Assembly (NCBI RefSeq): GCF_039522665.1
Contig: NZ_BAAADV010000001.1
Location: forward strand, 1,288,436 to 1,352,435
Source of the DNA: Natronoarchaeum mannanilyticum
GTDB lineage: Archaea; Halobacteriota; Halobacteria; Halobacteriales; Natronoarchaeaceae
Direction of reading: 5' to 3'
Length of the DNA stretch: 64,000 bases
The notes below the pieces were generated by a model. That model did no database searches. It was given only the letters and a program-made list of their open reading frames with translations, and had not been told where the DNA came from. Shown here one piece after another: positions 35,362-56,866 of this stretch (its first letter is position 1; each line of letters opens with the position of its first letter). A program made the translations under genes and the position numbers.

Positions 35362-35541
35362 GATTGTTCTTATTCTGCCGTCTTTGATAGGCGTTGCTAA
35401 ACTATGTTTGACCATGTCCTGTTCTAATATTATAAATACTACTAATGTGGAAAGTATTCCCAGAACTAACGTTCCGATGAGTCGCTCATAACCAAAGTAG
35501 TAATCGTCACTGCTGGCGCTGGCCGGATGTGATTGCATCAC

Positions 35542-37411: not shown

Positions 37412-37419
37412 CCTTCGTA

Positions 37420-38370: not shown

Positions 38371-38492
38371 TTATCATCACTTCCATGTGGTGTAACTGTT
38401 TCTGTCCATAATATGCCTCTCTCTCCTAAGTATTCGGATTTAAACGAGAGCCGATAGAAAGACTTGTTATTCTCCCTCTCGCTTTGTTATGT

Positions 38493-39239
38493 ATGCTATC
38501 ACGGCTTGTTAATACATTATTGTCACCACTTTGCCAATCAGATTTGTTCACTACTCCGAAGAGGACGGTTGTTGACTTCTATACTCGGAATCTTCGATCT
38601 TTCATCCCTCGGCGACATGCAGTGTATAACTCAAAGAGAGTACTTGCCTCAACTCTTCTTGGAACAATAATAAATTCTGGCCCTCCTCACCGGCCTTACT
38701 ACGAGTCGGGAATTGCGAATAGTCTTCGGACATGGGTTGACGAAGGTGATCAGGTCGTGATTGTTGGTGGTGGCTGGGGCGTTACTGCAGCGATCGCCGC
38801 AGAGGTAGTTGGACCGTCGGGTCATGTCCATGTCTTTGAAGGATCAAAACAGCATACCCAATATGTTAAGGAAACAGCCCAACTCAACAACGTCAAAGAG
38901 CGGATATCCGTCACACACGCGATAGTCGGAACCGAGGTCAGTCTCCGTGGTGATTCAGGTGAAGCACAGTCGCTATCACCGCAGGAACTACCTGAGTGCG
39001 ATATCTTAGAACTTGACTGTGAAGGTTCTGAACTTGAGATTCTTCATAACATGACTATTGATCCCCGCATAATGATCGTCGAATCGCACGGCCATCTTGG
39101 AACTCCGTCGGATCGAGTCCGGGATACACTGGAAAATAAGGAGTACCAGATTGTTAGTGAAGAAGTTGCGGATAGAGGATTATTAGATGAATGCATAAAC
39201 AATGATGTGTCCGTTCTAACTGGAGTAAAGAACCCATGA
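38493..39239 (+). CDS. FkbM family methyltransferase
   Basis: 248 residues from ATG 38493 (a TTG 9 nt upstream is possible). SAM-binding core QVVIVGGGWGVTAAIAAEVVGPSGHVHVFEG, then DILELDCEGSELEIL and MIVESHGHLG, which match FkbM O-methyltransferases. The first 75 residues are hydrophilic to amphipathic and may contact the membrane. Probably O-methylates a sugar of the glycan. The ATG of the next gene overlaps its stop by 4 nt. Confidence 0.85.
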   Translation: MLSRLVNTLLSPLCQSDLFTTPKRTVVDFYTRNLRSFIPRRHAVYNSKRVLASTLLGTIINSGPPHRPYYESGIANSLRTWVDEGDQVVIVGGGWGVTAAIAAEVVGPSGHVHVFEGSKQHTQYVKETAQLNNVKERISVTHAIVGTEVSLRGDSGEAQSLSPQELPECDILELDCEGSELEILHNMTIDPRIMIVESHGHLGTPSDRVRDTLENKEYQIVSEEVADRGLLDECINNDVSVLTGVKNP

Positions 39240-40192
39240 ATAGCTGTAATCCATCAACGCAGAAAGGAATTGAACCGGACCTATCACAGACTGACGATAG
39301 ATTGGAACCCCCTCTCCCGAACGTGAGCATAGTTGTTCTCAACTGGAACAATTATGAAGACACGGCTTCCTGCCTCCGCTCTCTGGCCGAAGTATCCTAC
39401 CCTGAGATGGAAGTTTACGTCGTCGATAACGGATCTACTGACGGTTCTCACAAACGGCTTGCAGAAGAGTTTGAACAATATAATTTCATATTCAATAGCG
39501 AAAACCTTGGTTTTGCAGGCGGATGCAATCAAGCAATCAAACGAGTACTTAAAGAGGGCACTGATTATGTCCTTCTACTAAATAATGACACCGTGGTGCA
39601 GCCAGATTTCTTGACTCCACTGGTCGAAACCGCGGAAAGAGAAGACGATGTTGCGGCTGTCGGCGGGATCATTCGTGATATGTCTGGAGGGGTCCAATCT
39701 GCTGGGGGATCTTTTAATCCTTGGTTGGCGACTCTCCGTCATAGAGAAAACCCCGAGTCAAGTGTGTATGAAACGGATTTCATCACCGGCGCAATGATGC
39801 TGATCGAGGCAGAATTCCTGGCTTCACTTGATGGCCTCAACGACTCATACTTCTTTGGAATGGAGGATCAGGAACTCTGTTGGAAGGCTGACCAGCGCGA
39901 CCTTCGTCTCCTCATTGAACCACGTTCGGTTGTCCGACACGACAAAGGTGGATCTGCCTCAGAGGCGAGCCCTTTTCGATATTACCACGATACTCGTAAT
40001 CGACTTCGATTTGTGGGGGAGAATATCTCTTTTGCTGGAAGTTTCCTATTTTACATATTCTTCGCCTTCTCTAGAATATATCGATTCGGACAGTGGATAC
40101 TCTCTGGACGTACCGGGTTCGTAACTGCGACCCTTTCGGGGGCCTTTGACCATATTCGAGGTGCCGAATATCGTATGACCGATGATTTCTAA
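39236..40192 (+). CDS. Glycosyltransferase family 2 (rhamnosyltransferase-like)
   Basis: 318 residues. SIVVLNWNNYEDTASCLRSL, VYVVDNGSTDGSHKRL, GFAGGCNQAIKRVL, LLNNDTVV (DxD-like), TGAMMLIEAEFLASLDGLNDSYFFGMEDQELCWKADQRD. This is the WbbL/rhamnosyltransferase-like GT2 set (NDT and EDxxLC motifs). The rml genes in the same locus make a rhamnosyl donor plausible. One or two hydrophobic segments near the C-terminus (about 255-275). Co-transcribed with the FkbM gene. Confidence 0.9.
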   Translation: MNSCNPSTQKGIEPDLSQTDDRLEPPLPNVSIVVLNWNNYEDTASCLRSLAEVSYPEMEVYVVDNGSTDGSHKRLAEEFEQYNFIFNSENLGFAGGCNQAIKRVLKEGTDYVLLLNNDTVVQPDFLTPLVETAEREDDVAAVGGIIRDMSGGVQSAGGSFNPWLATLRHRENPESSVYETDFITGAMMLIEAEFLASLDGLNDSYFFGMEDQELCWKADQRDLRLLIEPRSVVRHDKGGSASEASPFRYYHDTRNRLRFVGENISFAGSFLFYIFFAFSRIYRFGQWILSGRTGFVTATLSGAFDHIRGAEYRMTDDF

Positions 40193-40206
40193 TCTCAGTG
40201 TCCTCC

Positions 40207-41307
40207 CTAATTTTCATAGAGAGCTTCAAACGAATCCACCATCACGTTGATACTGTAGTTATTGCGGGCTCGCTGTTGGGCCGCTATGCCAAGGGTTGAT
40301 GCGCGATCTTCGTTGTCAAGAAGTTCCCTGACCGCTTTACCGAGGGCTGATGAGTTTTGGCTCGGTACATGTATCCCGTGCTTCTCATCGTCAACCAACT
40401 CAGAACAGCCATCTACGGGCGTCGTTACGATGGGCAGTCCAGCGCACATCGCCTCAAGTAATGCACCTGGCAACCCTTCATAGTGCGATGGAAAGACGAA
40501 CACATCCATGGCATCAAGAAGGGCAGGAATATCGTCTCGCTGTCCCGCAAAGATCACAGATTTGGAACAACCACGTTCTTCGGCGTATCGTTCTAGAGCG
40601 TCGCGTTCTGGCCCGTCACCTACGAGTAATAGTTGTGCCTCAGAATGTGTATTGAGGACTGCTGGCCAAGCGTCCAACAGATCGTAGTGTCCTTTCCTTT
40701 CGACTAGCCTGCTGACGGTTCCAACGATCGGACAGTCTTGATCAAGCGATAGGGATTCATAGAGTTCGTTTGAAGCGCACCCTTGGGCGTATTTCTCGAC
40801 ATCCCGACCGTTCGGTACGACCGCGACCTGCTCTTCCTTTGCTCCGTGATTGACGATATGCTCTGCACCTGCTTGGGAGTTTGAAACCACTAGATCCGAT
40901 AGAGGAAGCGTAAGTCGGTCAATAAACGCTCTGAGAAGCGGGCGGCTATCGGGAACCTCACGCACGCCTGTAATACAAGTTGTCTTGGGTGTTACTACCG
41001 TTGCGAGTCTCGCGAGTACGTTGTCGAAGAATAAAAACGACTGGACGATGTCTGGCCGTTCTTGTCGGGCCGTTTGGGCGAACTGCAACAGGACACCGAA
41101 GTCCCACTTTCCGGCCGCATCTAGCGTTCGGTAGTGTACGTCCTCGTTGAGCTCGGCCACTAGCGGTCCATCGTCGACGATAGTCCAGACGGTAACTTCG
41201 TATTGGTCAGTATCGATATTATTTGCAAGGTCAACTAGAGTTTGCTCAGCACCACCAACAGAAAGCATTCCAATGAGAAACCAAAGTTGGGTATTTTCTT
41301 CAGTCAT
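40207..41307 (-). CDS. Glycosyltransferase family 4
   Basis: 366 residues. GT-B: LIGMLSVGGAEQTLVDLANNI, VVSNSQAGAEHIV, TVSRLVERKGHYDLLDAW, LLLVGDGPERDALERYAEE and FVFPSHYEGLPGALLEAMCAGLPIVTT with the E-x7-E donor motif. It adds another sugar to the lipid-linked glycan. Convergent with the GT2 gene at 39236 (14 bp apart). The last gene of the AT-richer block. Confidence 0.92.
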   Translation of the reverse strand: MTEENTQLWFLIGMLSVGGAEQTLVDLANNIDTDQYEVTVWTIVDDGPLVAELNEDVHYRTLDAAGKWDFGVLLQFAQTARQERPDIVQSFLFFDNVLARLATVVTPKTTCITGVREVPDSRPLLRAFIDRLTLPLSDLVVSNSQAGAEHIVNHGAKEEQVAVVPNGRDVEKYAQGCASNELYESLSLDQDCPIVGTVSRLVERKGHYDLLDAWPAVLNTHSEAQLLLVGDGPERDALERYAEERGCSKSVIFAGQRDDIPALLDAMDVFVFPSHYEGLPGALLEAMCAGLPIVTTPVDGCSELVDDEKHGIHVPSQNSSALGKAVRELLDNEDRASTLGIAAQQRARNNYSINVMVDSFEALYEN

Positions 41308-41420
41308 CTTTTGAAGGGCATACGAGAATTAGCAAGTCCCCCGTCTATATGAACCTAACTGAAATATCTGTGTGGTAGATATAATATATACATAATATAT
41401 GTATATCCGTAGTTATCTCA

Positions 41421-43871
41421 CTATGAAATTCTGATTCCAGTGCCGTTCACTACGTCCCTCTCGGTGACGCTAACTCTCTGGTTGTCCACCTCGTACTTGC
41501 CTGCGTACGGTACTATCACCGCAAATTCCCCGCTCTCACTCGCCATCACCTCTCGCTCGTAAGTGAACGATGTACCGTCTACCGTGATGTTCGTACTTAC
41601 CGAAACCAACTCGTTTGCCACTGCAGATCCGGTGATCGTCGCACCGGGAACTACTGCAAAGGTCGCTATAGTGCGATCCTCGTCGATGGACAGCAGTTGG
41701 TAGTGCGTTAGCGCGTCCCCCCCGTCATTGCTTGTTCCTATATCCCTTAACAATTTGCTCTGGGCGGTATTGGATGGAACGTTCCCATCGACTTCGGTTA
41801 CGACGACGTACCCAACCCTGCCGGTGAACTGTTCGTATCGCTCGTCGGGATTGCTCCCCGATCGGAACGGATCGTAGTTGTCGTACGCGTATCCGTAGTT
41901 ATTTGACTCCCCATTCACCACGTAGTTGAACATCCGGTTCGTGTCCCACTCGCTCAGGACGAAGTTCTCGGGGTACTCTCGATCCACGTTCTCTGCGTGC
42001 TCGTCGATAGCCGTCGCGGCCTCGTACTCCGCGTCGCTGTAGGTGACCTGACTGACTAGTGAGGGGACGAGCAACATCCCGAGTCCGGTAAACAGCACGA
42101 AAATGCCGATCAGATATCCCAGCTTCCCGCGATCGTCCGGAACGTCGATCGACGCGCTCGGCCGTTTAGCCGCTCCCCCGCCGCTCCCAAGTAGCCTCGT
42201 CTCGTCACTCGATCCTCCACGGAAGGGCCTCGGCGTCCGCGCCAGGTCGACCACCGACAGCACGTGAACGAGTCCGAGCCCTCCGAGCACGGCGATGAAC
42301 AGTGAAAGCTGTCCGGTGAAGCGCATCTGGACGCCGGCGAGAACCGTGAAGTACCAGCTGCACACTGCGACCAGCAGCCAGCCGGGTTCGTACCGACGAT
42401 ACGCCACCAACATCGCCCAGCCCAGCGGCACCAGCGCGAGGTAGAACGCAACTCCCGTCTGGGTCAGCGGCCCGAAGACGAACCCGTACTCGGCGGCGAA
42501 CAGCGACTGGGCCTCGGTCATCCCCTCCCGGAAGAAGAGGGTGTCGGCGCGATCGCGTACCTGGGCAACTTCGTCCGGTCGAAGCCGTCGGAACAGCCAC
42601 AGCCCGGCGACTGCCACGATCGACTCGAGGCTGACGAGAGCGCTCTCCGGGGCGTCGAAGTACCGCCAGACCTCGCCGAGCAGAGCCACCACGACTGTAC
42701 CGCCGACCACCATGATGGGCGTGTACGCCGCGTACGCTTCGTGCCATCCCCAGCGGGCGTGGAACAGGAACGAGATTGCGGCGCCGATCCCGAGTCCGAG
42801 TAAGATCGGCAGATTCGCCCCCATTGGCGACACGTCTGCCCGGGCGTCCATCGCAGCCCGCAGCCCCAGATACCCTGCGATCGGAATGAACATGAGGGGT
42901 GATCCGCCCCACGCGTGCACCGAAAACCCGACGCCGATCCCGAGTCCGACAGCTGCCAGCCACGTCCACCCGCTGGTCAGGTGCGCTCGAAGCGCGTCGG
43001 CGTCCGACTCCTCTGTCACCCGTCGATCTCGGAGATCCACCGCGAGCCACGCCAGCGATAGCACCATCACTCCGAGCCAGAAATACTGGTGGATCTGGTG
43101 ATCGATGAAGCCGATACCCGTGTACACCGCGTGGGCCGGGATCGTCGCCAGCACGAACACCGACGCAATCCCCACGCGCGGATCGTCGGTCAGCACGGTC
43201 GCGAGCTTGTACAGCACGACGCCGAGCGCGAGCGTTGCGACCACCGGCAACCACGCAGCGACCGTCGACGCCGCGGCCTGTCCCCCACCGAGCAACTCCG
43301 CGACGAACCAGTTCGTCGCGTGCGAAAGCGGACGCGCATCACCCACTCCCTCCGGCATGTTCGCGATCACGCCCCAGTCAGTCGGTCCGGAGGACCGCGC
43401 TAGCAGCTCCTCCATCCAGTACCGGAAGTAGTAGGGGTCGTTCCCCGGGGAGATCACGTGCTCCTCGCGCATCACCGACCCGTACGCCGTGATTCGCATG
43501 ACGAACAGAAAGGCGAGCGCGCCGGCGAGTCCGGCCATCGCCCGCAGATCGACCGAGACGTCGACGTCGAAATCGAACCCCTCCCCGAACGACGTACTCT
43601 CGCCAGTCTCTACAGATCCGCCCGATATCGCCGCGGCGACGGCGTCTCGATCGGCGACCTGGTACTCCCCGTCGGCCTTCTCGACGATCCCGCGGGAGAC
43701 GAGCTCGCCGAAGGTCCCCGAGTCGGCGGGAATATCCTCGAACGTCCACGTCTCTCGATCGGCGTCGACCTCCAGTACGGCTTCGAGCGTCTCCTCGGCG
43801 TCGGAGCGGTCGTCGAGAAACGAACGGACGGCCTCGCGAACGGTCGACGACTGGCCGGCCTCCGGTGACAT
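41421..43871 (-). CDS. STT3/AglB-like oligosaccharyltransferase, divergent
   Basis: 816 residues. The N-terminal about 100 residues are soluble and resemble a winged-helix-like module (TWTFEDIPADSGTFGELVSRGIVEK). Then about 12 membrane segments. The first external loop carries SPGNDPYYFRYWMEELL, the DxD-equivalent with D145 of AglB, and GFIDHQIHQYFW, the DHH-equivalent. The C-terminal soluble domain should contain WWDYG; the closest is SEWDTNR at about residue 640. The layout fits the archaeosortase-associated archaeal STT3 family. It would transfer the lipid-linked glycan to surface proteins, but the altered motif leaves the acceptor unclear. Confidence 0.85.
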   Translation of the reverse strand: MSPEAGQSSTVREAVRSFLDDRSDAEETLEAVLEVDADRETWTFEDIPADSGTFGELVSRGIVEKADGEYQVADRDAVAAAISGGSVETGESTSFGEGFDFDVDVSVDLRAMAGLAGALAFLFVMRITAYGSVMREEHVISPGNDPYYFRYWMEELLARSSGPTDWGVIANMPEGVGDARPLSHATNWFVAELLGGGQAAASTVAAWLPVVATLALGVVLYKLATVLTDDPRVGIASVFVLATIPAHAVYTGIGFIDHQIHQYFWLGVMVLSLAWLAVDLRDRRVTEESDADALRAHLTSGWTWLAAVGLGIGVGFSVHAWGGSPLMFIPIAGYLGLRAAMDARADVSPMGANLPILLGLGIGAAISFLFHARWGWHEAYAAYTPIMVVGGTVVVALLGEVWRYFDAPESALVSLESIVAVAGLWLFRRLRPDEVAQVRDRADTLFFREGMTEAQSLFAAEYGFVFGPLTQTGVAFYLALVPLGWAMLVAYRRYEPGWLLVAVCSWYFTVLAGVQMRFTGQLSLFIAVLGGLGLVHVLSVVDLARTPRPFRGGSSDETRLLGSGGGAAKRPSASIDVPDDRGKLGYLIGIFVLFTGLGMLLVPSLVSQVTYSDAEYEAATAIDEHAENVDREYPENFVLSEWDTNRMFNYVVNGESNNYGYAYDNYDPFRSGSNPDERYEQFTGRVGYVVVTEVDGNVPSNTAQSKLLRDIGTSNDGGDALTHYQLLSIDEDRTIATFAVVPGATITGSAVANELVSVSTNITVDGTSFTYEREVMASESGEFAVIVPYAGKYEVDNQRVSVTERDVVNGTGIRIS

Positions 43872-43979
43872 TGCTACGAATGGTTATAGCCGGCGCTCAT
43901 GGACCTTTCGCTTGAACGGGATCGCTCCCCGAGTTTCCTTCCTCGATCGGGGTACATTCCGGTCGAGTCACGGAACGAC

Positions 43980-44483
43980 TCACCGTGCCGCCGAACTCTT
44001 CCCGATCCAGACCCGATCACAGAACCACACAGTCCCCGCAACGAGCACAGCCCCGACGGCCACCCACCAATCAGAAGAAACGTACAGGCTCGGCGTCGCG
44101 TGGCGCCACCACGTCATGGGATAGAGCCACGCCGCGGCCTGCCCGTCCGCCCAGGCCTTGACCGCGTCGACGAGCAGGTGCGTCAGGGCACCGCCACCAA
44201 GCACTGCGAACGCGTAGCGACGGTCGCGAGCGAACAGCATCGCGCCGATGCCACAGAGAAGCATGGCACCGCCGAGCGTGGAGAGGGCGCCGAAGCGAAA
44301 GCCGACACCGAGCGCCGATTCGATCCAGACTTCGGAAACGAACATACCGATCCGATTCAGGTCAGGGACCATCGAGCCGATGGCGCCGATAGCGACCCAC
44401 TTCGGCGTGATCCGATCAGCGTACCAACTCACCACCGTGAACACCGCGTACGCGACGAGCACGTGGGTAAGCAAATCGGCCAT
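43980..44483 (-). CDS. DUF457-type membrane-bound metal-dependent hydrolase
   Basis: 167 residues with four membrane segments. It starts MADLLTHVLVAYAVF, with His in DLLTH; further on are MVPDLNRIGMF, LTHLLVDAVKAWADG and TWWRHATPSLY. These His/Asp sites are typical of YdjM/DUF457. The family is named for its metal-site pattern; few members are characterised. Its ATG shares one base with the stop of the upstream gene (44483), so the two are co-transcribed. Confidence 0.85.
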   Translation of the reverse strand: MADLLTHVLVAYAVFTVVSWYADRITPKWVAIGAIGSMVPDLNRIGMFVSEVWIESALGVGFRFGALSTLGGAMLLCGIGAMLFARDRRYAFAVLGGGALTHLLVDAVKAWADGQAAAWLYPMTWWRHATPSLYVSSDWWVAVGAVLVAGTVWFCDRVWIGKSSAAR

Positions 44484-44971
44484 CAGCGATCATCCTCCTC
44501 GCGAGGAACGATCGCCAGTCGCCTGACGTCGATCCGCCAGTGTCTGAAGAAGTAGCCGATCGCGAGCATCGCACCGACCAGGGAGATACCGAGCTTGTAG
44601 TACCGACTCGTGCTGTCGGGCGTCACCACGACGGTCCTGCTTGCGTCCATCGTCCGATCCGCGTGGAGCGTGCCGTACACCTGTATGAAACTGCCCGGCG
44701 AGACATCCCCGCGAACGCCCTGGACCGTCAAATCGGCGACGACCTCGTCGTCGCGATCGAGCACGTGAATCACAGCACTATCGCCGTCGACGGACTGCAC
44801 TTCGCCGAACACCAGCACCTCCGACCCGGTGTACGAGTCAAAGTCCTCGTCGAGCTCCTCGGCCGTCGGGTGGGGCCACCGGTCGTCGTAGACAGTCCCG
44901 TAGTGGACACAGAGACCTACGGTCCCGAGCAGAAGGAGCCCGCACGCCAGCATCCGAACGTATCTGTTCAC
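44483..44971 (-). CDS. Membrane-anchored OB-fold-like protein
   Basis: 162 residues. A membrane helix at 6-26, then an outside beta domain (GSEVLVFGEVQSVDGDSAVIHVLDRDDEVVADLTVQGV), then a second hydrophobic segment (LGISLVGAMLAIGYFF) and a basic tail. The beta domain has the spacing of an OB fold. It pairs with the DUF457 gene. Function unknown. Confidence 0.75.
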   Translation of the reverse strand: MNRYVRMLACGLLLLGTVGLCVHYGTVYDDRWPHPTAEELDEDFDSYTGSEVLVFGEVQSVDGDSAVIHVLDRDDEVVADLTVQGVRGDVSPGSFIQVYGTLHADRTMDASRTVVVTPDSTSRYYKLGISLVGAMLAIGYFFRHWRIDVRRLAIVPREEDDR

Positions 44972-45134
44972 GGTTGTCGTCCGTCCGTTCGATGGACTAC
45001 CGACTTGAGAGTATCGACGTCACTTGAGGAGTTCGTTCTCTAACCGATAGACTGAGTCGTCATTCAGAATCCCCTACTCGGACTCGTAATTAGCGGTCCA
45101 TCCATCTCTGTTACTGGCGGACTCTCGCAGTGAA

Positions 45135-45362
45135 TTAGTGGGAGAGTGTCCCCGCCTGGCGCCGTTGGTTGTCCTTTTCGGACGCCAGCGTGGCGGCTTC
45201 GTCGGTTGCCTCGATCGCCTCGATGACTCTCTCCGCCAACTCGGGATCATCTTCGAGATCGACGCGTTCGAGTGCATCTTCGAGGTGATCACTCGCCGTC
45301 GCAAGCAGGGCGCTTGGACTCCGCTCGACTCCCCCGGTGGTGCCGCGATCCGCTCTCGACAT
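45135..45362 (-). CDS. Small acidic helical protein
   Basis: 75 residues from ATG 45362. Predominantly Glu/Asp/Ala, with helices LLATASDHLEDALERVDLED and ELAERVIEAIEATDEAATLASE. Composition and length match the short acidic proteins found throughout haloarchaea. No domain is recognised. Lies between the OB-fold gene and aglM. Confidence 0.55.
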   Translation of the reverse strand: MSRADRGTTGGVERSPSALLATASDHLEDALERVDLEDDPELAERVIEAIEATDEAATLASEKDNQRRQAGTLSH

Positions 45363-45449
45363 ACTCAGGACTACTGCACGTTAACGGTTAGTTATAGACT
45401 GTTTACCGTCTATTTGCGTTCTATTTGCAGCGTCGGATCCGGCGTTTGC

Positions 45450-46736
45450 TTACCAAGTCAGTCCCTCGTACGTGATCCCTTCGCGCCGATCGACGATACG
45501 CCGACCGTCGACCACGACCGGCTCGGCCATCGCATCAAATTCCTCGTCGAGCGCCCCGAACTCGTCCCAGTCGGTCACCACGAGCGCTCCCGAAGCCCCC
45601 TCTAGCGCCTCACCAGCCGAGTCGACGTACTCGATTCCCGGGAACCGATCGCGCATGTTCTCGGTCGCAACCGGATCGTATCCCACCACATCGGCTCCAC
45701 GCTCCTGTAGCCCCTCGATCACCGGGATCGCTCGCGAATTGCGCGTGTCGTCCGTCCCGGGCTTGAACGCCAGGCCGAGCACGGCGACACGCTTCCCCTC
45801 CGCGTCGACGTGCTCGTCGAACAACTCTAGCAGGCGCTCGGGCTGGCGATCGTTGACCTCGACGGCGGCCTCCAACACCGCGGGATCGTACCCCGACTCC
45901 CGCGCGGCGGCGATGATCGCGGCGACGTCTTTGGGGAAACACGACCCGCCCCAGCCGACGCCCGAGCGCAGGAATCGCTCGCCGATCCGATCGTCGAGAC
46001 CGATCGCGTCGGCGACTTCGTAGGCATCGATGCCGAACTCCTTGCAGACGTTCCCCAGATCGTTGATCAGCGAGATCTTCGTCGCCAGGAACGCGTTGTT
46101 CGCGTACTTGATCATCGTCGCCGTCTCGGGATCCGTCCGGACGACGTGGGCGTCGTGGTCGGCCAGCAGCGGCGCGTAGATGTCTTCTAACACAGCACCG
46201 GCCCACTCCGAGTCGGTCCCGAAGACGACCTTCTGTGGGTCCAGGAAGTCCTCGACTGCCGTCCCCTCGCGCAGGAACTCGGGATTCGTCGCGACCTCGA
46301 CGCGCCCCGCCGCCTCGCCGGCTCCCTCGGCGACGGCGTCGCGGACCGCGTCGATCTTCGGCGGCGTGATCGTGCTCTTGACGATCACCAGATGGTCGTC
46401 TTCGGCGTCCGCGAGCGCATCGCCGGTCATTTCGGCGGCCGCTTCCAGCGGCGCGACGTCGATGCTCCCGTCCTCGCGCGAGGGCGTCTGGATCGCCAGG
46501 AACGTCGCGTCCGCCTCGGCCACGTTCTCGTACGACGTCGTCGCGCGGAGATTCTCGCCGGCGTGCTCGGCGACCAGTTCGTCCAGCCCGGGTTCGTGGA
46601 TCGGCGCCCGGCCCGCGTTCAGTTCGGCGACGACGTCCTCGTCGATGTCGATCGCCGTGACGTCGTGGCCCAGGTCCGCGAGGCAGGCCGCGAGCGTCGT
46701 CCCGACGTAGCCGCTGCCGACGACGTTGATGTTCAT
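45450..46736 (-). CDS. aglM: UDP-glucose 6-dehydrogenase, AglM-like
   Basis: 428 residues. [24 protein letters not shown] (NAD), [38 protein letters not shown] and the catalytic Cys in [11 protein letters not shown]. It oxidises UDP-glucose to UDP-glucuronate, the uronic acid donor of S-layer N-glycans in Haloferax volcanii. Divergent from aglF (133 bp), whose product supplies UDP-glucose. A second dehydrogenase of the HexNAcA branch lies at 28395. Confidence 0.93.
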
Positions 46737-46841
46737 TGTCCGAGATGGGTCGCTCGGAGCGCATTAACGTTCCGTACTTCAGATACGTATGATCCTGCTC
46801 TCAGTTGCCCCTCGTACTACAGCGCAATGACACGCAAAGAT

Positions 46842-46847
46842 TTTATA
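46842..46847 (+). promoter_or_regulatory. TATA box of aglF
   Basis: TTTATA about 26 nt before ATG 46870, the position of a leaderless haloarchaeal promoter. It supports this start over the upstream in-frame codons. Confidence 0.6.
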
Positions 46848-46869
46848 GCTCAATTGAAACCAATGGGGT

Positions 46870-47622
46870 ATGCAAGCCGTCGTTCTCGCCGCTGGCGAAG
46901 GCACCCGCCTCCGGCCGCTCACGGAAGACAAGCCGAAGGGGATGGTCGAAGTCGACGGGAAGCCGATCCTTACCCACTGTTTCGAGCAGCTGGTCGAACT
47001 CGGCGCCGAGGAGCTGATCGTCGTCGTCGGCTACAAGAAAGAGAAGATCATCCAGCATTACGACGACGAGTTCCAGGGGGTGCCGATCACCTACACTCAC
47101 CAGCGCGAGCAGCAAGGCCTCGCCCACGCGCTGTTGACCGCCGAGGAACACGTCGATCAGGACTTCATGCTGATGCTCGGCGACAACATCTTCGACGCGA
47201 ACCTGCAGGACGTCGTGCGCCGACACAACGAGGACCGCGCCGACGCCGCGTTCCTGGTCGAGGAGGTTCCCTACGACGAGGCGTCTCGCTATGGCGTCTG
47301 CGACACGAACGATTACGGCGAGATCACCGAGGTCATCGAGAAGCCCGAGGAGCCGCCAACGAACCTCGTGATGACCGGTTTCTACACGTTCACGCCGGCG
47401 ATCTTCCACGCCTGCCATCTGGTCCAGCCATCCAACCGCGGCGAGTACGAGATCAGCGAGGCCGTCGACCTGCTGCTGGCCAGCGGGCGGACGATCGACG
47501 CGATCGGCCTCGACGGCTGGCGGCTGGACATCGGCTACCCCGAGGACCGCGACGAGGCCGAGCGGCGCCTGACCGGCGAGACGCCCGAGGACGACGAGGC
47601 GGCGGCAGCGACCAGCGACTGA
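46870..47622 (+). CDS. aglF: UTP-glucose-1-phosphate uridylyltransferase, AglF-like
   Basis: 250 residues. MQAVVLAAGEGTRLRPLTEDKPKGMVEVDGKP (nucleotide site), MLGDNIF (metal Asp) and VIEKPEEPP. Short form without a beta-helix, as in H. volcanii AglF. It makes UDP-glucose, the substrate of the divergent aglM. The C-terminus ends in an Asp/Glu/Ala-rich tail. Complete. Confidence 0.92.
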   Translation: MQAVVLAAGEGTRLRPLTEDKPKGMVEVDGKPILTHCFEQLVELGAEELIVVVGYKKEKIIQHYDDEFQGVPITYTHQREQQGLAHALLTAEEHVDQDFMLMLGDNIFDANLQDVVRRHNEDRADAAFLVEEVPYDEASRYGVCDTNDYGEITEVIEKPEEPPTNLVMTGFYTFTPAIFHACHLVQPSNRGEYEISEAVDLLLASGRTIDAIGLDGWRLDIGYPEDRDEAERRLTGETPEDDEAAAATSD

Positions 47623-48076: not shown

Positions 48077-51000
48077 ATGAGCGCCAGAAATATCCGATCG
48101 ACCGTCCGTCGGATCGCACCCGTCTGTGCCGTCCTGTTGCTTCTCGCCGCAGTCGTCGCGCTCGGGACCGGCGTCGGCGCGACCGCCGTCTCCGCGCAGT
48201 CCTCGGGCGGGCTCGACCAGTCGGCGTCGGTCTCCCCGAACGAGAGCCAGACGTTCGCTCCCGGCGGGACGTATCCGGTCGTCGTCTCGGTCGACGTCGG
48301 CGAGGAGTCGTTCCTGAGCGACGACCGCATCGAGAACCCCGCGCTCGACGTTGCCGTGGAGGGCGACGCGACGATCGAGAGCGTTCAGCCCACCGACTAC
48401 CAGACCGCGGAGTTCAACGAGACCTCCGCGACCGTCTCGTCGGACTCGTTCTTCCGTGCCGGGACGACCCAGACCTCCGTGGTGCTCGTCGACGTTCCCG
48501 GCGGTGTCGACACCGGATCGGTGTCGCTGACCGCGACGCCGCGGGCCGGTGCGACCGAGTACGAGACGGCACGCGCCGAGTACGCGGTCACGTCCGACGT
48601 GACGACCCGCGAGGCGATGGCGAACGCGTCGGCCGCCCGCAACACGCTCGTCTCCTCGTACCGCGACAGCTACGGGACGCTGCTGTACAGCGAGCCGTGG
48701 AACGAGACGACCGCGACGGCGATGCGCGACGGGTTCGCGACGGCGATCACCGAGGGGACGAAGGGAGCGATCGTCGGGTCGACGCCGGGACTCTCGACGG
48801 TCGACGACATCCGAACGTCCTACGAGGTCGCGACCGGCAACTACGACGGCGGCACGGCCGGCCAGATCGCGAAGATCAACCTGGCGCTGAAGAACGACCT
48901 CGACTCGCGGATGGCCCGCGACAGCGTTCGTCGCGCCGGCAATAGCTCGGCGCCGCTCGCCGAGCTCGAGCGACTGAACGCTCAGGAGCGGCGAGCCTGG
49001 GAGGAGGGCGACCGCGACGCGCTCGAGGAGGCCTTGCTCCGGCAGCGCGCGGTGCTCGTCGACGCCAGCTTCGAGTCCTCGGGCAATCCCTACGCGAACG
49101 ACTACGAGACGTCGCTGCTGGTCGAAGCCGAGGAACAGCGCGACGCGAGCCGTTCGAGCGTCGGCTTCGGCGAGGAGAACCCGCTGCTCGCCGAGTACTT
49201 CGCCGCGCTCTCGACGTACGCCACCGACGAGTACGACGCCGCCGGCGACCGGCTGGCGCTCGTCCGCGAGCCGAGCCCGCAGGTGACGACGGCGAGCGAC
49301 CGGTCGGCGATCGAGGACGACCTGCGCGGCCTCGCCGAGAACGAGACGACGACCGTCACGTTCACGGTCGCCAACGCCGACGGCGCCGGCGTCGCGAGCC
49401 AGCGGAGCTTCCTTTCGCTGAGCCACGGCGAGAACATCTCGATCGAGGACGTGTCCGAGATCGGGACCGACGAGCCCCCCGCCGTCGACCGCCTGGATCC
49501 CGGCGACGAGGCGATCGACGCCTCCGGTGAGCAGACGACGCTCGATCACGCGCTCGTCGACGTCCGCGACCAGTACGATCCCGGCCAGCAGCGCCAGTAC
49601 CAGGTGACGATCTCGCGCGACGACGAGGGTGAGGCCTGGCTGTCCTACCGGGCGGCGTTCCGCCCCTTCTTCGTCGCGGACGGGCTGTCTCCCGAAGAAA
49701 ATCAGGAAGCGTACGAGCGCTTCCCCCGGTCCGGCCCGGAGGACCAGCAGGGCTGGCCCGCGTACACCCTTTCGACCGACGATACGACAGCTCCGCCCCG
49801 CCCCGTGATCGACGCGCCCGCCGACCCGACGACCGGCGAGTCGGTCGAACTCGACGCGAGCGGGACGACCGCCGACGCCGCGATCGAGTCCTACGAGTGG
49901 TCGCTCGACACCGACGACGACGGCGACGTCGACCGGACGCTCTCCGGCGAGACGCCGACGACCACCGTCGAGTTCGCGGGGCCGACGCGCATCCGCCTCG
50001 ACGTGACGGACGCCGACGGCCGGACGGCGACCTCGGAGACGGTCGTTCGCGTTGAGGACGCCGCGCTCACCGCGAACACGACGTCGATCCCGGTGGCTGC
50101 GGACCGGTCGCTACCCGAACCGGGTGACGACCTCAGCTTCGACGCGCCGGCCGACATCGAGGATCCGGAGTGGACGCTTGTCGAGAACGGGACGGAACGC
50201 GACGCCGGCCAGAGTGATACGTTCTCGACGACCGTCGACGAGGCGGGGACGTACGAACTGACGCTCTCGGGGACGGTCGACGGCGTCGACGTCGAGACGA
50301 CCGAGACGATCTACGTCGCGTCCCGCGGGGAGCGCGTCGGCACACCGTCGGTCCGTATCTCGGCACCGTCGCGCGCCGATCCGGGCGAGACGATCGCGAT
50401 CGACGCGTCGGCGTCGACCCACCCCCATCCTAACCGGGTGATCGACGGCTTCGAGCTCCGAGTCGACGGGGAACAGGTCGATTCGAACGCCGACGGACGG
50501 TTCGAGCGCGCGTTCGACGCCGAGGGCGACCGGACGATCGAGGTCGTCGCTATCGGCAGCGCCGGAAACGAGAGCACCGCGTCGAGAACCGTCGCCGTCG
50601 GCGACGCCTCGACCGACGACCCCACGGACGACCCGACCGACGCGTCCGACTGGACCGACCCCGGGCGGACGGGCTACGCCGCCGCCAACGGCACGACCGC
50701 CCAGGACGTCGTCTGGGAGCGAACGTTCGAGCGGTCGGCCCTTGGCGCTGCCGTGGGTAACGGGACTACCGCCGTCGTCACGTCGGCCGGTACCGCGACG
50801 GACGAACGCCTCTACTCGTTCGGTCCGAACGGCTCGGAGCGCTGGAACCGCTCGATCGCCGGCGCGAGCGGCGAGCCGGCCCTCGGTACTGACGGGACCA
50901 CGTACGTCCGCTACTCCGCCGGCGTCCGGGCGTTCGACGCGGACGGGAGCGTGCGCTGGGACACCGAAAACGACGACGCCTGCACGTACGACTTCTGCTT

Positions 51001-54000
51001 CATCGATCCCTCGCGTCCCGTCGCGACCGAGGACGCCGTCTACGTGCTCGGCGAAGTCGAACGCGAAACTGCGCTGATCGCGCTCGACCCCGAGACGGGC
51101 GACCAGCGGTGGAATCGCACGTTCCCGAACGCGACCGACGTTCCGAACGACGCCATCGCCGCCGCTGACGGCGGAGCGTACGCCGCCGTCCCCGGCGTGG
51201 GACTGGTCGCCGTCGACGCCGATGGAACGGAACGCTGGCGGGCGAGCCTGCCCGACGCGCAGGCGCATCCGGTCGCGACGCCGAGCGGCGCGGTGCTGTA
51301 CACGACCAACGAGTCGCTGATCGCCCTCGACGCCGACACCGGCGGGGAGCTGTGGACTCACGCCACTCAGAGTCGAGCCGCGCCGAGCGTCACCAACGAC
51401 GGGCGGATCGTCGTCCCGCGCGGCACCTACAGCGACAGGCTGGAGGCGACCTACGGGATCGACGTGCTCGACGCCGAGGGCCGAGTCCAGGCCGAGTGGA
51501 CGAGCGAGATATTCGCCGGCGACACCGAAAACTTCGACGTGTTCGAACAGCCCCTCGTGACGCGCGACGGTCTGGTCCGGTTCGTCGCCGGGCCGACGGA
51601 CGATCCCGACGCGCGCTACGTGATCGGACTGGACGGGACCGAGCGCAGCGTCGCCGACGTGGAGGTCGGATCGCCGACCCTCGACCTCGTCGCAGACGGC
51701 CGGCCGCTCCTGGTCGGGACGGATCGGATGCAGGCCCTCGGTGACGTCGAAGAGGAGTCGGATCCGATCGACGACTCGGTCGACGTCGGTGTCCCGACGC
51801 CGCCCGACGGCACCTGGCCGCGATCGCGCTTCGACGTCGGCAACACCCGCGCCGCCACGGACGTGACGGCGCCGCGCTCGATCGGCGCCGCGTGGGAGTT
51901 CTCGGTCCCCCGCAACGACTCCGGGACGATGCCCGTCTCGTCGACGGTCGCGACCGAGGATACCGTGCTCGTCGGTCTCGGGCGAGTTATAGGAGGGGCC
52001 GATGTGTACAACGACTCGACCGTGTACGCCGTCGACCGACAGACCGGTGAGCGGCGCTGGGACGCAGTCGTTCGCGGCTCGGAGAAACGACGGGTAACCG
52101 ACATGCAGGTGTCCGGCGATACCGTCCTCGTCGAGTACGTTGAACAAGCTGACGCGCTCAACCGCCACCTCGCGGCGATCGACGTCTCGACCGGCGAGGA
52201 GCGCTGGAACACCAGAGTGTACGGCTCGGGACCGGTCTTCTCGGAGCGGGGCGACGACATCTATCTCCAGAGTTCGCTCCAACTCGAAGAACTGAACGCC
52301 ACGACCGGCGAGACTGAGTGGGCCGTAGCACCCGCGGACGGAGACGCCTCCTTCGAGGGCAACGGCCCGCCAGTCGTCACCAACGAGACGGTGTTCTCGG
52401 CGGCCGACTGCGAGGTCCCCGGATCGGACTGGCCGACCGGCTGCGTCGTCGCGGTGAATCGGTCCGACGGGAGCGTTCGGTGGGTCGAGAGGACCTCCCA
52501 CGTGTTCTCGGACGTCGACAGCTCGCCCGTGCCGGTCGTCGACGACGGCTCGCTGTACGTTCCCGGTCGTCTCGGCGGACAGTACGAGATCGTCGAGTTC
52601 GACGCAAAGACCGGCGACGTGATCGCCAACGAAACCCTCGCTGGCCACGGGTCGTATAACCACGCTACGCTTCCCAGGCCGGCCGTCACCGACTCTCGGT
52701 TCGTCACCGAGCGCGGCATCTACACGCGCGAGAACTTCCAGCGATCCGCGTCGCTCGATCTCGACGCGATGCCGGCCGTGGTCGGCGACCGGGCCTTCGG
52801 CGTCGCCGACGGCGAGCTGGTCGCACACGAGCTGTCGACCGGCGACCGCATCGAATCGGTCGCCCACTCCGACGGCGCGCCCGATCGGATCGGCGCGATC
52901 GCGGACGGGACGGTCGTGACCGTCACCGACGGCAACCCCGAGGAGTTCGGTGACACGGAAGGGGCGGTGCTGGCCTACCAGGGTACGACCGAGCCCGGCT
53001 TCGAGTACGGGCCGACCGAGCCCGGCGTCAACGAGACGGTGACGTTCGAGGCCAGCGTCGCGGCCGACGCCTACGGCTGGGACGGCGACGGCGACGGTGA
53101 GATCGAAGCGCAGGGGAAGACGGTCGACCTGTCGTTCGCGGAGTCCGGGACGCACGACGTGACGCTCGTCACCGACCCCGGTAGCGACGGGTCCGCCCGG
53201 TACACTCGGTCGGTAATGGTCACGGAGCCGATCAAGGCGTCGCTCGACGTGAACGAGCGGCACCCCAAGCCGTCGACGATGCTCGAACTCTCGGCGGCCG
53301 ACAGCGCCGGCACCGGCAATCTCACGTACGACTGGGAGGTCAAGGGCGTCGACGATGATGTCAGCGACTGCGAGGCGACGTGCGAAGTGTGGCTTCCCGC
53401 AGACCAGTCCGTCACCGTGTCGGTCGCCATCGCGGACGAAAATGGCCAGACCGATACGACGAGCGTCACGGTCACGCCCGTTGACGCCCGGATCGACGTC
53501 GCGGTCGACGGCACTGATCGTCAGAGACTGTTCTACGAGGACGACGTGCTGCTTGAGGAGACGCTCACCGTCAACGTCATCGGCGACGCGAGCCTGAGCG
53601 ACCTCCGGATCGAGGGGGTCGCCGCGACGACCGACGGCGGGACCGTCGAGCTCGACGAGACCGGGCAGGCGACGATCACGGCGGAACTCGACGCCGCGGG
53701 CGTCGACGACCCCGTCACGCGGGAGGTCGAACTGAGCGTCCACGAGTACCGCTCCGAGACGGAGCGCTTCGAGTTCACCACGGAGAGCCGCAAGACCACG
53801 GTCGGGCTGGCGATGATTCAGCCCCAGCTCGACCCGATGGCGCGCCACCTCGAACAGCGCGTCGGCGAGTTACCGTCGACGGTCCACTTCGAGGCCACCG
53901 ATCGTATCGAGAACGGAACCCACGCCGGGCTCGCCAAGTATCCCGACACGATCCTCGTCGATACGACGCAGTCGTCGACCGGCGGCGGCCTCGAACTGGG

Positions 54001-56866
54001 AACGGCCGAACACGAACTCACGCACATCGCCCAGTTCGAGATGGACATGGAGACCGACGGCGACTGGAACTTCCTCCTCGAGGGACAGGCATCCTTCGAG
54101 GCCAACACCTTCCAGTTCTACTCGGTCGACGCGAATCGCCCCGATCGGGCGGAGCTGTTAGACTGGGACGGATCGCTCGATGAGTACGAGCAGGGCAACG
54201 ACTTCGTCAGCGCGTTCTACGCCGAGTACGGCCGACAGACGTTCCTCGAGATGGTCGAGGACTCCGAAGGCGAGGATCTCGACAGGCGCTTCGAGGCGGC
54301 CACCGGCGAGTCGTTCGACGCGTTCTACGACCGCTGGAAGAGCACGGATCCTGCCGTGGATCCAGGCAGCGATCGGGCGGACGTCTCCTACCGCGTGTCG
54401 TTCCACTACGAGGACGGCCAGCTCAGCACCGACGGCTCACCGATGGCGGACGTCAGCTGGGACGTCGACGGCGACGGCGTCTTCGAGCGGACCGGCGAGA
54501 CGATCGACTGGACGCCCGACGAGGCCGGCGAACAGTCGGTGACCCTGGCCTACGAGGACGAGGGAACGACCATCGCACAGACCCAGCGCTTCCGGGTTTC
54601 GAGCGGTTCCGTCGACGAACCGCCCGCCGTCTCGGGCACGGTCGCCGTCTCGAACGCGACGCCGTACAACGGTCAGGAGGTCACGTTCGACGCCTCGGAC
54701 GCGGAACTGGTCGAGGGCGACCAGCGGCGCAGCGTCGAGCAGTACCACTGGAACTTCGGCGACGGGACGACCCATACGACGACCGAGCCGACGATCACGC
54801 ACGCGTTCGCCGACCCCGGCGAGTACAACGTCACGACGACGCTCGACGCCGGCAACGCGTCCGCGTCGACGACCCGGACGGTCTCGGTCGAACTGGACGA
54901 TCGCCCGCCGGAGATCAGCGACGTCGCGGTCGACCGGTCCCTCGCGAGCGACGAGGTGACGATCAGCGCCAACGTCACGCCGGTCGGCCCCGACGTCGAG
55001 GCGGTCCGCCTCGGCGTCGGCGCGACGTTCACGTCCTTTACCGTCACCGAACCCGCGGCCGACAACGCGACCGAAGGGCGGGTCGAGGCGACGATCGACG
55101 GCGACGCCGTCGTCGCGGACGGCGAGTACACCGCGGTCGTCGAAGCGGTCGACGAACTGGGCAACACGACGACCGAGCGCGGCGACAGCGTCGCGTTCGA
55201 CACGACGCCGCCCGGGATACGGCCGCGCGTCGACGGCCTCGACACTGAAACCGCGACGCTGACGCTCGACGCCGACGAGCCGTTCGATCTAACCGATCTT
55301 CGGATCGCCGCTCGCGGCGACGGCACTGCCGATCGGACGCCGAACGCGAGCCGGATTCCGGGCGGACTCGAGGACGCCGAGGACGAACTCGCAGTCGACT
55401 TCGAGGGCGGCCTCGTGGGCGGCACGAACACGACCTACACCGTCGCTCTCGACGCGACCGACGACGCCGGCAACGAGGTCACGACAGAGTTCGAGTCGAC
55501 GGTCATTCCCTACGAGCTCGACAACGGCACCGCGACGCTGACGCCCGCGGGCGTCAACAGCACCGTGACGCTCGACGCCGACGCCGCGGCGATCGACAAC
55601 GACACCGATCGGACCGCCGTCATCACGGCCACTACCGTCCCGCCGGCGGGGACCGAACTCGACGCCGCCACGATCGCCGGCGGCTTCCTCGACGTCGACC
55701 GCGTCGGACTCGACGCGAACGAGCTCGAGAACGCGACCGTCAGGATCCCGCTCGCCGCCGTCGACGACGATCTCGCCGAGGCGTTCGAGCCCGACGAGCT
55801 GCGGATCGTCCGCTCGGCCGACGGCGAGCGCGGGTACGACCCGCTCGCGACCGACTACGACGCCGACGCGAACGAGCTGGTCGCGACCGCCGACGACTTC
55901 AGTCAGTTCGCCGTCGCCGGTACCGACGAGACGCCGCCGTCGATCGACGAGGTCGGCGTCGATCCCGGCACCGAGGTCGCGCCCGACGAGGGGCCGGTTA
56001 CGGTCGCGTTCGAGTACTCGCCCGAGATCTCGGGGATCGACGTCGCCGAAACCGCGGTCGACGTCAACGCCTCCGCGAACCGCGTCGAGACGCAGATCAC
56101 CGGCGAGCGCGCGACGGTCGACATCGCGGACCTCGAAATCGGCGAGACGATCGCCGTCGATCTCACCGTCGCCGACGACGCCGGTAACGCCGAAACGGCG
56201 ACGGAGACGATCACCGTCTCCGAATCCGGCTCCTCCGGCGGTGGTGGTAGTATCGGCGGTGGCGGCGGTGGCGGCGGGCTATCGCTCGAACCGCCTCACT
56301 TCACGGTCGAGGTCCAGGATGCCGGCGGGCCGTACGAACCAGGCGAAACCGCAGAGATCACCGCCGTGGTCGATAACGACGGCGGCACCGTCGGCACCCA
56401 GGAACTCACTCTGGCCACGGGGGGCGAGGTCGTTGATCGCGAGTCCCAGCAGCTTGCCATGGGACAGCAGCGCTTCGTGACGTTCACCTACGACGTGCCC
56501 ACGAGTGCAAGCGGTGATCAGCGGGTCGTGATCGAAAGCGCGAACGACTCGGCGTCGACGTCGCTCTCGATCGACGCCGAGGCGTCGACGGGCGACGACC
56601 GACAGGAGGGCGGCAACGATACTGACGATGAGGCTGGTGGCGACGAGAACGATACTGACGACGAGACGGACGGCGATAGTCTCGACGATGACGATATTGG
56701 CACAGACGAGACCGACGATGCTGCAACCGGCGCTGACGACGAGAGCGACGAAACCGGCACCGACGAGTCGACGGACGACGACGGTTCGCCAGGGTTCGGT
56801 CCCGTAATCGCGCTCGCGGCGCTCCTCGTCGGGGGTATCGTTCGTCACCGGAACAGGCAGGACTGA
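48077..56866 (+). CDS. Giant PGF-CTERM surface protein with metallopeptidase domain
   Basis: 2,929 residues. Signal peptide 1-40; PKD/Ig-like domains at about 573-660, 755-840, 1638-1805; two beta-propellers of PQQ-like repeats at about 861-1224 and 1243-1634. At about 1905-2095 a gluzincin-type peptidase has H1979-E-L-T-H1983 and, 18 residues on, E2002 in LLEGQASFE. More PKD/Ig modules follow, then a Gly-rich linker (about 2722), a CARDB-like domain and a 70-residue Asp/Glu/Thr linker. It ends SPGFGPVIALAALLVGGIV plus basic residues: PGF-CTERM (PGF at 2905-2907), the archaeosortase A signal. It should be exported, glycosylated, processed and lipid-anchored. ATG 48077 gives a normal signal sequence. 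Role unknown. Confidence 0.92.
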   Translation: MSARNIRSTVRRIAPVCAVLLLLAAVVALGTGVGATAVSAQSSGGLDQSASVSPNESQTFAPGGTYPVVVSVDVGEESFLSDDRIENPALDVAVEGDATIESVQPTDYQTAEFNETSATVSSDSFFRAGTTQTSVVLVDVPGGVDTGSVSLTATPRAGATEYETARAEYAVTSDVTTREAMANASAARNTLVSSYRDSYGTLLYSEPWNETTATAMRDGFATAITEGTKGAIVGSTPGLSTVDDIRTSYEVATGNYDGGTAGQIAKINLALKNDLDSRMARDSVRRAGNSSAPLAELERLNAQERRAWEEGDRDALEEALLRQRAVLVDASFESSGNPYANDYETSLLVEAEEQRDASRSSVGFGEENPLLAEYFAALSTYATDEYDAAGDRLALVREPSPQVTTASDRSAIEDDLRGLAENETTTVTFTVANADGAGVASQRSFLSLSHGENISIEDVSEIGTDEPPAVDRLDPGDEAIDASGEQTTLDHALVDVRDQYDPGQQRQYQVTISRDDEGEAWLSYRAAFRPFFVADGLSPEENQEAYERFPRSGPEDQQGWPAYTLSTDDTTAPPRPVIDAPADPTTGESVELDASGTTADAAIESYEWSLDTDDDGDVDRTLSGETPTTTVEFAGPTRIRLDVTDADGRTATSETVVRVEDAALTANTTSIPVAADRSLPEPGDDLSFDAPADIEDPEWTLVENGTERDAGQSDTFSTTVDEAGTYELTLSGTVDGVDVETTETIYVASRGERVGTPSVRISAPSRADPGETIAIDASASTHPHPNRVIDGFELRVDGEQVDSNADGRFERAFDAEGDRTIEVVAIGSAGNESTASRTVAVGDASTDDPTDDPTDASDWTDPGRTGYAAANGTTAQDVVWERTFERSALGAAVGNGTTAVVTSAGTATDERLYSFGPNGSERWNRSIAGASGEPALGTDGTTYVRYSAGVRAFDADGSVRWDTENDDACTYDFCFIDPSRPVATEDAVYVLGEVERETALIALDPETGDQRWNRTFPNATDVPNDAIAAADGGAYAAVPGVGLVAVDADGTERWRASLPDAQAHPVATPSGAVLYTTNESLIALDADTGGELWTHATQSRAAPSVTNDGRIVVPRGTYSDRLEATYGIDVLDAEGRVQAEWTSEIFAGDTENFDVFEQPLVTRDGLVRFVAGPTDDPDARYVIGLDGTERSVADVEVGSPTLDLVADGRPLLVGTDRMQALGDVEEESDPIDDSVDVGVPTPPDGTWPRSRFDVGNTRAATDVTAPRSIGAAWEFSVPRNDSGTMPVSSTVATEDTVLVGLGRVIGGADVYNDSTVYAVDRQTGERRWDAVVRGSEKRRVTDMQVSGDTVLVEYVEQADALNRHLAAIDVSTGEERWNTRVYGSGPVFSERGDDIYLQSSLQLEELNATTGETEWAVAPADGDASFEGNGPPVVTNETVFSAADCEVPGSDWPTGCVVAVNRSDGSVRWVERTSHVFSDVDSSPVPVVDDGSLYVPGRLGGQYEIVEFDAKTGDVIANETLAGHGSYNHATLPRPAVTDSRFVTERGIYTRENFQRSASLDLDAMPAVVGDRAFGVADGELVAHELSTGDRIESVAHSDGAPDRIGAIADGTVVTVTDGNPEEFGDTEGAVLAYQGTTEPGFEYGPTEPGVNETVTFEASVAADAYGWDGDGDGEIEAQGKTVDLSFAESGTHDVTLVTDPGSDGSARYTRSVMVTEPIKASLDVNERHPKPSTMLELSAADSAGTGNLTYDWEVKGVDDDVSDCEATCEVWLPADQSVTVSVAIADENGQTDTTSVTVTPVDARIDVAVDGTDRQRLFYEDDVLLEETLTVNVIGDASLSDLRIEGVAATTDGGTVELDETGQATITAELDAAGVDDPVTREVELSVHEYRSETERFEFTTESRKTTVGLAMIQPQLDPMARHLEQRVGELPSTVHFEATDRIENGTHAGLAKYPDTILVDTTQSSTGGGLELGTAEHELTHIAQFEMDMETDGDWNFLLEGQASFEANTFQFYSVDANRPDRAELLDWDGSLDEYEQGNDFVSAFYAEYGRQTFLEMVEDSEGEDLDRRFEAATGESFDAFYDRWKSTDPAVDPGSDRADVSYRVSFHYEDGQLSTDGSPMADVSWDVDGDGVFERTGETIDWTPDEAGEQSVTLAYEDEGTTIAQTQRFRVSSGSVDEPPAVSGTVAVSNATPYNGQEVTFDASDAELVEGDQRRSVEQYHWNFGDGTTHTTTEPTITHAFADPGEYNVTTTLDAGNASASTTRTVSVELDDRPPEISDVAVDRSLASDEVTISANVTPVGPDVEAVRLGVGATFTSFTVTEPAADNATEGRVEATIDGDAVVADGEYTAVVEAVDELGNTTTERGDSVAFDTTPPGIRPRVDGLDTETATLTLDADEPFDLTDLRIAARGDGTADRTPNASRIPGGLEDAEDELAVDFEGGLVGGTNTTYTVALDATDDAGNEVTTEFESTVIPYELDNGTATLTPAGVNSTVTLDADAAAIDNDTDRTAVITATTVPPAGTELDAATIAGGFLDVDRVGLDANELENATVRIPLAAVDDDLAEAFEPDELRIVRSADGERGYDPLATDYDADANELVATADDFSQFAVAGTDETPPSIDEVGVDPGTEVAPDEGPVTVAFEYSPEISGIDVAETAVDVNASANRVETQITGERATVDIADLEIGETIAVDLTVADDAGNAETATETITVSESGSSGGGGSIGGGGGGGGLSLEPPHFTVEVQDAGGPYEPGETAEITAVVDNDGGTVGTQELTLATGGEVVDRESQQLAMGQQRFVTFTYDVPTSASGDQRVVIESANDSASTSLSIDAEASTGDDRQEGGNDTDDEAGGDENDTDDETDGDSLDDDDIGTDETDDAATGADDESDETGTDESTDDDGSPGFGPVIALAALLVGGIVRHRNRQD

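Follow-up and report, generated by a model that had tools for sequence, protein, structure and literature searches.

Membrane-associated proteases of haloarchaea were covered in a 2015 review (PMC4343526) whose subjects include Lon, rhomboid and signal peptidases as well as archaeosortase and prepilin peptidase; aminopeptidases are absent from its text, and a metalloprotease is mentioned once. Lipid anchoring of PGF proteins is established in Haloferax (PMC7157517). The haloarchaeal protein Hvo_1808, which becomes relevant below, appears in the one paper found on it as a protein tested for its lipobox, with no HEXXH mentioned and no function given. Here we describe a gene from Natronoarchaeum mannanilyticum, found in a stretch of DNA of 64,000 nucleotides (hereafter, as a whole, the window), whose 2,929-residue product was not described in any publication recovered by literature searches. 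We consider it probable, from the features of the protein and of its relatives, that this gene encodes a secreted zinc metallopeptidase placed within a giant lipid-anchored surface glycoprotein and acting on surface or extracellular polypeptides.

Domain order and anchor signal of the giant protein

The open reading frame is single and runs without an internal stop from 48077 to 56866 on the forward strand, giving 2,929 residues, in agreement with an earlier note on this DNA. Its features are listed here; domain boundaries beyond the Pfam matches are approximate and were taken from sequence and alignment.

48077..56866, +, giant surface protein gene, 2,929 aa (open frame; full-length Natronoglomus mannanivorans homologue of 2,980 aa)
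48077..48196, +, signal-peptide-like N terminus, residues 1-40 (basic start, long hydrophobic run, AVSAQ at the end)
48197..49786, +, unannotated N-terminal region, residues 41-570 (identity by region; 30% with a same-genome paralogue)
49787..50062, +, PKD domain 1, residues 571-662 (K319L-like_PKD/PKD matches)
50063..50611, +, Ig-like domains, residues 663-845, boundaries approximate (weak Glucodextran_B-like match)
50639..51751, +, PQQ-type beta-propeller 1, residues ~855-1225 (PQQ_2 stretches; BamB-like at 980-1099)
51782..52996, +, PQQ-type beta-propeller 2, residues ~1236-1640 (PQQ_2 at 1313-1591)
52997..53752, +, PKD domain 2 and Ig-like domains, residues 1641-1892 (PKD-type matches; Ig-type matches weak)
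53753..54355, +, putative metallopeptidase domain, residues 1893-2093, divergent Peptidase-MA superfamily (six-member alignment, profile links)
54011..54025, +, HELTH motif, residues 1979-1983, with predicted zinc ligands H1979 and H1983 and predicted catalytic E1980 (H-E-L-x-H invariant in 10 homologues)
54080..54082, +, E2002 of the EGxA motif, predicted third zinc ligand (invariant in 10 homologues)
54185..54187, +, Y2037, candidate transition-state tyrosine (invariant in 10 homologues)
54356..54601, +, Ig-like domain travelling with the peptidase, residues 2094-2175 (59-64% identity in two giant homologues; aligned in Halorubrum proteins)
54602..54892, +, PKD domain 3, residues 2176-2272 (PKD_4 at 2193-2270)
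54893..56581, +, Ig-like stalk repeats, residues 2273-2835 (weak Big_13-like match; sequence)
56582..56785, +, acidic, Thr/Asp-rich linker, residues 2836-2903 (sequence)
56786..56863, +, PGF-CTERM archaeosortase signal (PGF, hydrophobic helix, RHRNR), residues 2904-2929 (TIGR04126, 28.4 bits)

The two beta-propellers and several PKD/Ig domains that the earlier note had recognised were recovered in a Pfam search, with PQQ_2 at 119 bits and PKD_4 at 62 bits, both over cut-off; at least three PKD domains and many Ig-like domains are present. The placement of the peptidase between the two propellers was mistaken, since both propellers (residues ~855-1225 and ~1236-1640) lie on its N-terminal side and it is Ig/PKD domains that flank it. 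The protein is strongly acidic in composition (D+E 20%, K+R 6%) and contains 42 N-glycosylation sequons. When the two full-length homologues are compared, conservation peaks in the N-terminal region, residues 41-570 (61-69% with Natronoglomus). Among 98 relatives, this region of 530 residues (window 48197-49786) was matched in only four, two of which are partial frames with a stop.

The C terminus, PGFGPVIALAALLVGGIVRHRNRQD, combines a PGF motif, a hydrophobic segment and a basic tail, the arrangement by which ArtA/PGF-CTERM substrates are recognised. The PGF-CTERM anchor of the earlier note was borne out in NCBIfam, where TIGR04126 scored 28.4 bits (cut-off 24.5), and fell under the cut-off in the Pfam version of the same signal (PF18204, 13.9 against 18.8). 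An archaeosortase (TIGR04125, E 1.5e-91) is encoded in the source genome, and one was found in each of the five genomes that carry the peptidase family. The protein would be exported via its N-terminal signal, N-glycosylated at its 42 sequons, cleaved at the C-terminal PGF-CTERM signal and then anchored to lipid by archaeosortase A. An Ig/PKD stalk of about 800-900 residues may keep the peptidase at a distance from the membrane. The two propellers and the conserved N-terminal region would then lie beyond the peptidase, where they presumably bind a partner or substrate.

Predicted active site and family of the peptidase domain

The residues H1979, H1983 and E2002, together with E1980, were found where the earlier note had placed them, and HELTH-X18-E contains the sole HEXXH of the whole protein. 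In the predicted active site, zinc would be held by H1979, H1983 and E2002, with E1980 as the residue that activates water and Y2037 as a candidate for stabilising the transition state. The HEXXH-X18-E spacing is by itself suggestive, and conservation is the stronger evidence. All six close members of the family, two of which come from a single genome (Halorubrum kocurii), share invariant H, E, L, H, Q, W, E, G, A and E residues and a tyrosine equivalent to Y2037. When four outer-group proteins of ~570-640 aa with PGF-containing tails (from genomes G093, G104, G281 and G306) were added to give a ten-member set, HEL-x-H, Q, EG-x-A and Y were still invariant. A lack of conservation in homologues had been named beforehand as a point that would tell against the motif, and the motif survived this check. 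The spacing, described in the earlier note as an exact gluzincin match, holds for the window protein and drifts elsewhere: it is X18 in four of the six close members, X19 in the other two and in one weaker relative, and X25 in the four outer members. A motif arising by chance in so long a protein draws some plausibility from the fact that about 2% of shuffles of this 2,929-residue composition contain a HEXXH (1.9% for any HEXXH; 0.07%, p ~0.0007, for HEXXH-X18-E), but the motif is conserved even in homologues of 22-33% identity, and this conservation and profile matches over the whole domain make this explanation exceedingly improbable.

Searched against Pfam, the window domain matched no family at E up to 10. 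This includes Peptidase_MA_2 (PF13485), one of the profiles that the earlier note had proposed as a check; the best close relative reached 16.1 bits against a cut-off of 32.4, the source genome contained no match, and PF13485 was found in none of 195 class genomes, a weak negative since the controls were also silent at that threshold. Profile comparisons were more informative. In hhalign, the alignment of the six-member profile with the outer group spanned 172 columns at a probability of 96.5%, whereas reversed controls came out near zero. A phylum-wide search with the ten-member profile recovered, from a genome that belongs to the phylum but not to the order (G426), two small proteins that look secreted. 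These two proteins pass the Peptidase_MA_2 cut-off (38.8 and 34.4 against 32.4) and are detected by the six-member profile alone at 30-32 bits over ~173 columns, the best of 2,000 shuffled decoys reaching 9.5; hhalign gave 95.7% over 173 columns for the same comparison, with a reversed control at 0.3%. Given these links to proteins that pass Peptidase_MA_2, the window domain is therefore assigned to the Peptidase MA superfamily as a divergent member. The features by which the superfamily is broadly recognised were found, namely a conserved HEXXH with a downstream glutamate and statistically supported homology to accepted members. On these sequence grounds, it represents a rare haloarchaeal branch of the superfamily, a predicted metallopeptidase that carries no Pfam annotation.

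Membership of the M1 family proper, as in the 'M1-type' label of the earlier note, is very improbable. The window protein does have the HEXXH-X18-E spacing and an EGxA motif, but PF01433 was not matched at E up to 10, the GXMEN exopeptidase motif upstream of HEXXH is found in none of the ten members, and the spacing varies among homologues. Moreover, PF01433 was not found in any of the 21 haloarchaeal genomes searched, with 8 of 14 control genomes positive, and it is members of Peptidase_MA_2 to which a profile match has support. What stands of the earlier proposal is a predicted zinc peptidase in a large anchored surface protein, to which invariant residues and profile homology to Peptidase_MA_2 lend support; the M1 label does not.

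Sequence searches of solved structures in the PDB gave no relevant match; a match to bacterioferritin (E 0.014) is most likely spurious and was gone with a larger profile. Weak matches to DUF6055 and eCIS_core were below cut-off. AlphaFold models of 385 and 192 residues, built from four-row alignments of window sequence and related loci, had overall pLDDT values of 53 and 44, with about 25-40 over the motif region in both, and Foldseek with the low-pLDDT 192-residue model returned nothing at E < 0.001 (best E 6.9).

A relationship of the window peptidase family to the Hvo_1808 family (NF038145), which is present in 145 of 146 class genomes, is provisional. Hvo_1808 members carry HELVHALQ...EGDA with a spacing of X26-28. 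The ten-member profile detects them at E 1e-5 to 1e-6 (hhalign 94%, 109 columns), and the six-member profile compared with them in hhalign gave nothing; because only the ten-member profile shows it, this link is weaker than that to Peptidase_MA_2. The outer-group consensus scored a weak 17.2 bits against NF038145, whose cut-off is 200 bits, and the window protein was not among the NF038145 matches at that cut-off. Many of the Hvo_1808 loci (L057-L081) contain two tandem copies, one with HELVH...EGDA and the other with QELFH...EGDG, and in the QELFH paralogues the predicted first zinc histidine is consistently changed, rather than lost by random decay.

This consistent QELFH clade, in a provisionally related family, has to be considered when asking whether the window domain might itself be a catalytically dead binding module that kept its fold and lost its activity. 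Large surface proteins often bear binding-only modules. All predicted catalytic residues are nevertheless invariant in 10 of 10 homologues, across three spacings, and a dead module appears improbable.

Relatives, gene neighbourhoods and candidate substrates

Whole-genome searches found close homologues of the peptidase domain in four other genomes. In all, the core domain occurs at E < 1e-70 in 5 of 394 class genomes, with weak matches in six more genomes (E 1e-3 to 1e-6), and its distribution is patchy. Exact-pattern scans with the window domain alone gave no relative in genome contigs, viral contigs or plasmids. Among the weak first-pass candidates, one (L003, genome G008) was a chance match within a regulator-like protein, and the family profile did not retrieve another (L026). 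The homologues differ greatly in size: that of Natronoglomus mannanivorans (G365) is full length at 2,980 aa, those of genomes G086 and G298 have 1,771 and 645 aa, and Halorubrum kocurii (G375) has two dockerin-bearing copies of ~540 aa each.

These differences bear on the modularity of the protein. A same-genome paralogue of 1,612 aa (L055:5715-10553; G000:C1 ~843.7-848.6 kb) combines the N-terminal region (30% identity, E 5e-34) with PKD and propeller domains and a tail containing PGF, but has no peptidase. In the G086 copy, the match covers residues 10-69 and resumes at 1210; residues 70-1209 are missing, and propeller 2, the peptidase and the stalk are retained. The peptidase is thus a separable module, because it is missing from the paralogue and kept in a copy devoid of residues 70-1209. 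The Ig-like domain that follows it (residues 2094-2175) is among the best conserved parts, at 59-64%, and is common to the Halorubrum proteins, so that the peptidase and this Ig-like domain together look like a mobile unit.

In the window, the giant gene stands at the end of a cluster, preceded by the following genes:

41421..43871, -, AglB oligosaccharyltransferase (AglB_L1 over cut-off)
45450..46736, -, UDP-glucose dehydrogenase family (three domains over cut-off; a 68% homologue adjoins the Natronoglomus gene)
46870..47622, +, sugar nucleotidyltransferase (NTP_transferase, 157 bits; a 79% homologue adjoins the Natronoglomus gene)

With its glycosyltransferases, flippase and asparagine synthase, the cluster resembles by sequence one for surface-glycan synthesis. 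The region 28395-47622 as a whole looks like a large surface-glycan/N-glycosylation cluster around AglB, in which GC content falls to about 51% between 40 and 42 kb, compared with 62-71% beyond; this drop suggests that part of the cluster was recently acquired.

Two proposals about substrate, which compete within the surface-protease reading and are not alternatives to it, can be weighed against these and the other neighbourhoods. The first is an envelope-processing, sheddase-like protease that trims or releases surface glycoproteins of its own or sister cells during envelope biogenesis. The genes for UDP-glucose dehydrogenase and nucleotidyltransferase adjoin the giant gene both in the window and in Natronoglomus, where the gene order differs and the stretches read contained no AglB. 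In the G298 genome, a one-strand run of ~13 kb (L030:2617-15435) places the peptidase gene between genes for a surface-glycoprotein-signal protein (1,598 aa) and a small cohesin-like protein, beyond which come those for an S-layer-like PGF-CTERM protein and archaeosortase A, with the S-layer-like genes and archaeosortase at most ~5 kb from the peptidase gene. Against envelope processing, the G086 copy has none of the window's glycosylation neighbours and lies among unrelated genes (amidohydrolase, methyltransferase), and the gene is missing from most haloarchaea sampled, though all of them need an envelope; we regard this proposal as rather unlikely. Several proteins of the G298 cluster carry a similar EF/dockerin-like C-terminal tag.

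The second is a scavenging protease that digests environmental protein, its propeller/PKD part binding particulate or polymeric substrate as in PKD-bearing secreted bacterial proteases. On contig 103 of Halorubrum kocurii (L031, L032), both peptidase copies lie among several dockerin proteins. The copy that was scanned has a type I dockerin (Dockerin_1) over cut-off and the other a similar tail, and a subtilase adjoining one peptidase copy has both Peptidase_S8 and Dockerin_1 over cut-off. The species name Natronoglomus mannanivorans likewise points to polymer use. The window gene, however, adjoins N-glycosylation genes, the source genome gave no cohesin match, and the G298 relative sits among S-layer-like genes and archaeosortase rather than degradative ones, which leaves scavenging a tentative proposal. 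The Halorubrum kocurii cluster also contains several proteins with cohesin-like repeats, whose cohesin match is below cut-off, and looks like a protease-centred cohesin-dockerin system. Elsewhere, in the G086 genome, about 15 cohesin matches over cut-off occur within 21 kb (G086:C1:470364-491710).

The G298 and glycosylation neighbourhoods favour envelope processing, and the Halorubrum dockerin cluster favours scavenging. For the proposed surface-anchored metallopeptidase as such, the gene neighbourhoods speak more for targets on the cell's own surface, or for polypeptides outside the cell, than for the other cells suggested in the earlier note, and its likely substrates would be surface or extracellular polypeptides within the cell's reach. 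For the giant protein we infer zinc binding, peptidase activity, orientation and substrate alike. Natural variants (a scaffold without peptidase, a peptidase without the N-terminal half, and a peptidase with dockerin) let experiments separate the roles of the parts.

Comparison with known systems

The best claim to novelty concerns a giant, apparently anchored surface protein that carries an unannotated, predicted Peptidase-MA domain; the superfamily itself is known. If true, a surface-anchored metallopeptidase family would add an enzyme class to the archaeal envelope and give a handle on the Hvo_1808 family of 145 of the 146 sampled haloarchaeal genomes. It is conceivable, and we offer it as a speculative idea, that giant ArtA-anchored proteins, dockerin-bearing proteins in cohesin-like clusters, mid-size PGF-CTERM proteins and the near-universal Hvo_1808 proteins, with intact HELVH beside QELFH pseudo-peptidases, make up an unrecognised set of haloarchaeal surface MA-proteases working as an outer-surface proteolytic system.

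With the M1 aminopeptidases (PF01433), the window protein shares the zinc gluzincin motif HEXXH-X18-E, but its domain lacks a profile match and GXMEN, and the spacing varies in its family. With Peptidase_MA_2 (PF13485), the domain has in common the HEXXH, the EG glutamate motif that follows and, towards the C terminus, a helical tail with a conserved Trp at its end, whereas it has no PF13485 match and sits inside a giant anchored protein. The ArtA-dependent haloarchaeal surface glycoproteins (PMC7157517) show the same PGF motif, hydrophobic segment and basic tail; differently from them, the window protein carries a peptidase, and its anchoring is predicted. The Hvo_1808 family is a haloarchaeal surface/lipoprotein family in which HELVH and EGDA recall the window-type motif, and it differs in its X26-28 spacing, its near universality, its other flanking domains and the QELFH of part of its members. 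The proteins of the outer group, which are unannotated and of a PGF-CTERM-like peptidase-PKD-CARDB type, share with the window protein a homologous peptidase, a PKD-like domain and a PGF-containing tail, and are set apart from it by X25 spacing and by a build with neither propellers nor giant scaffold.
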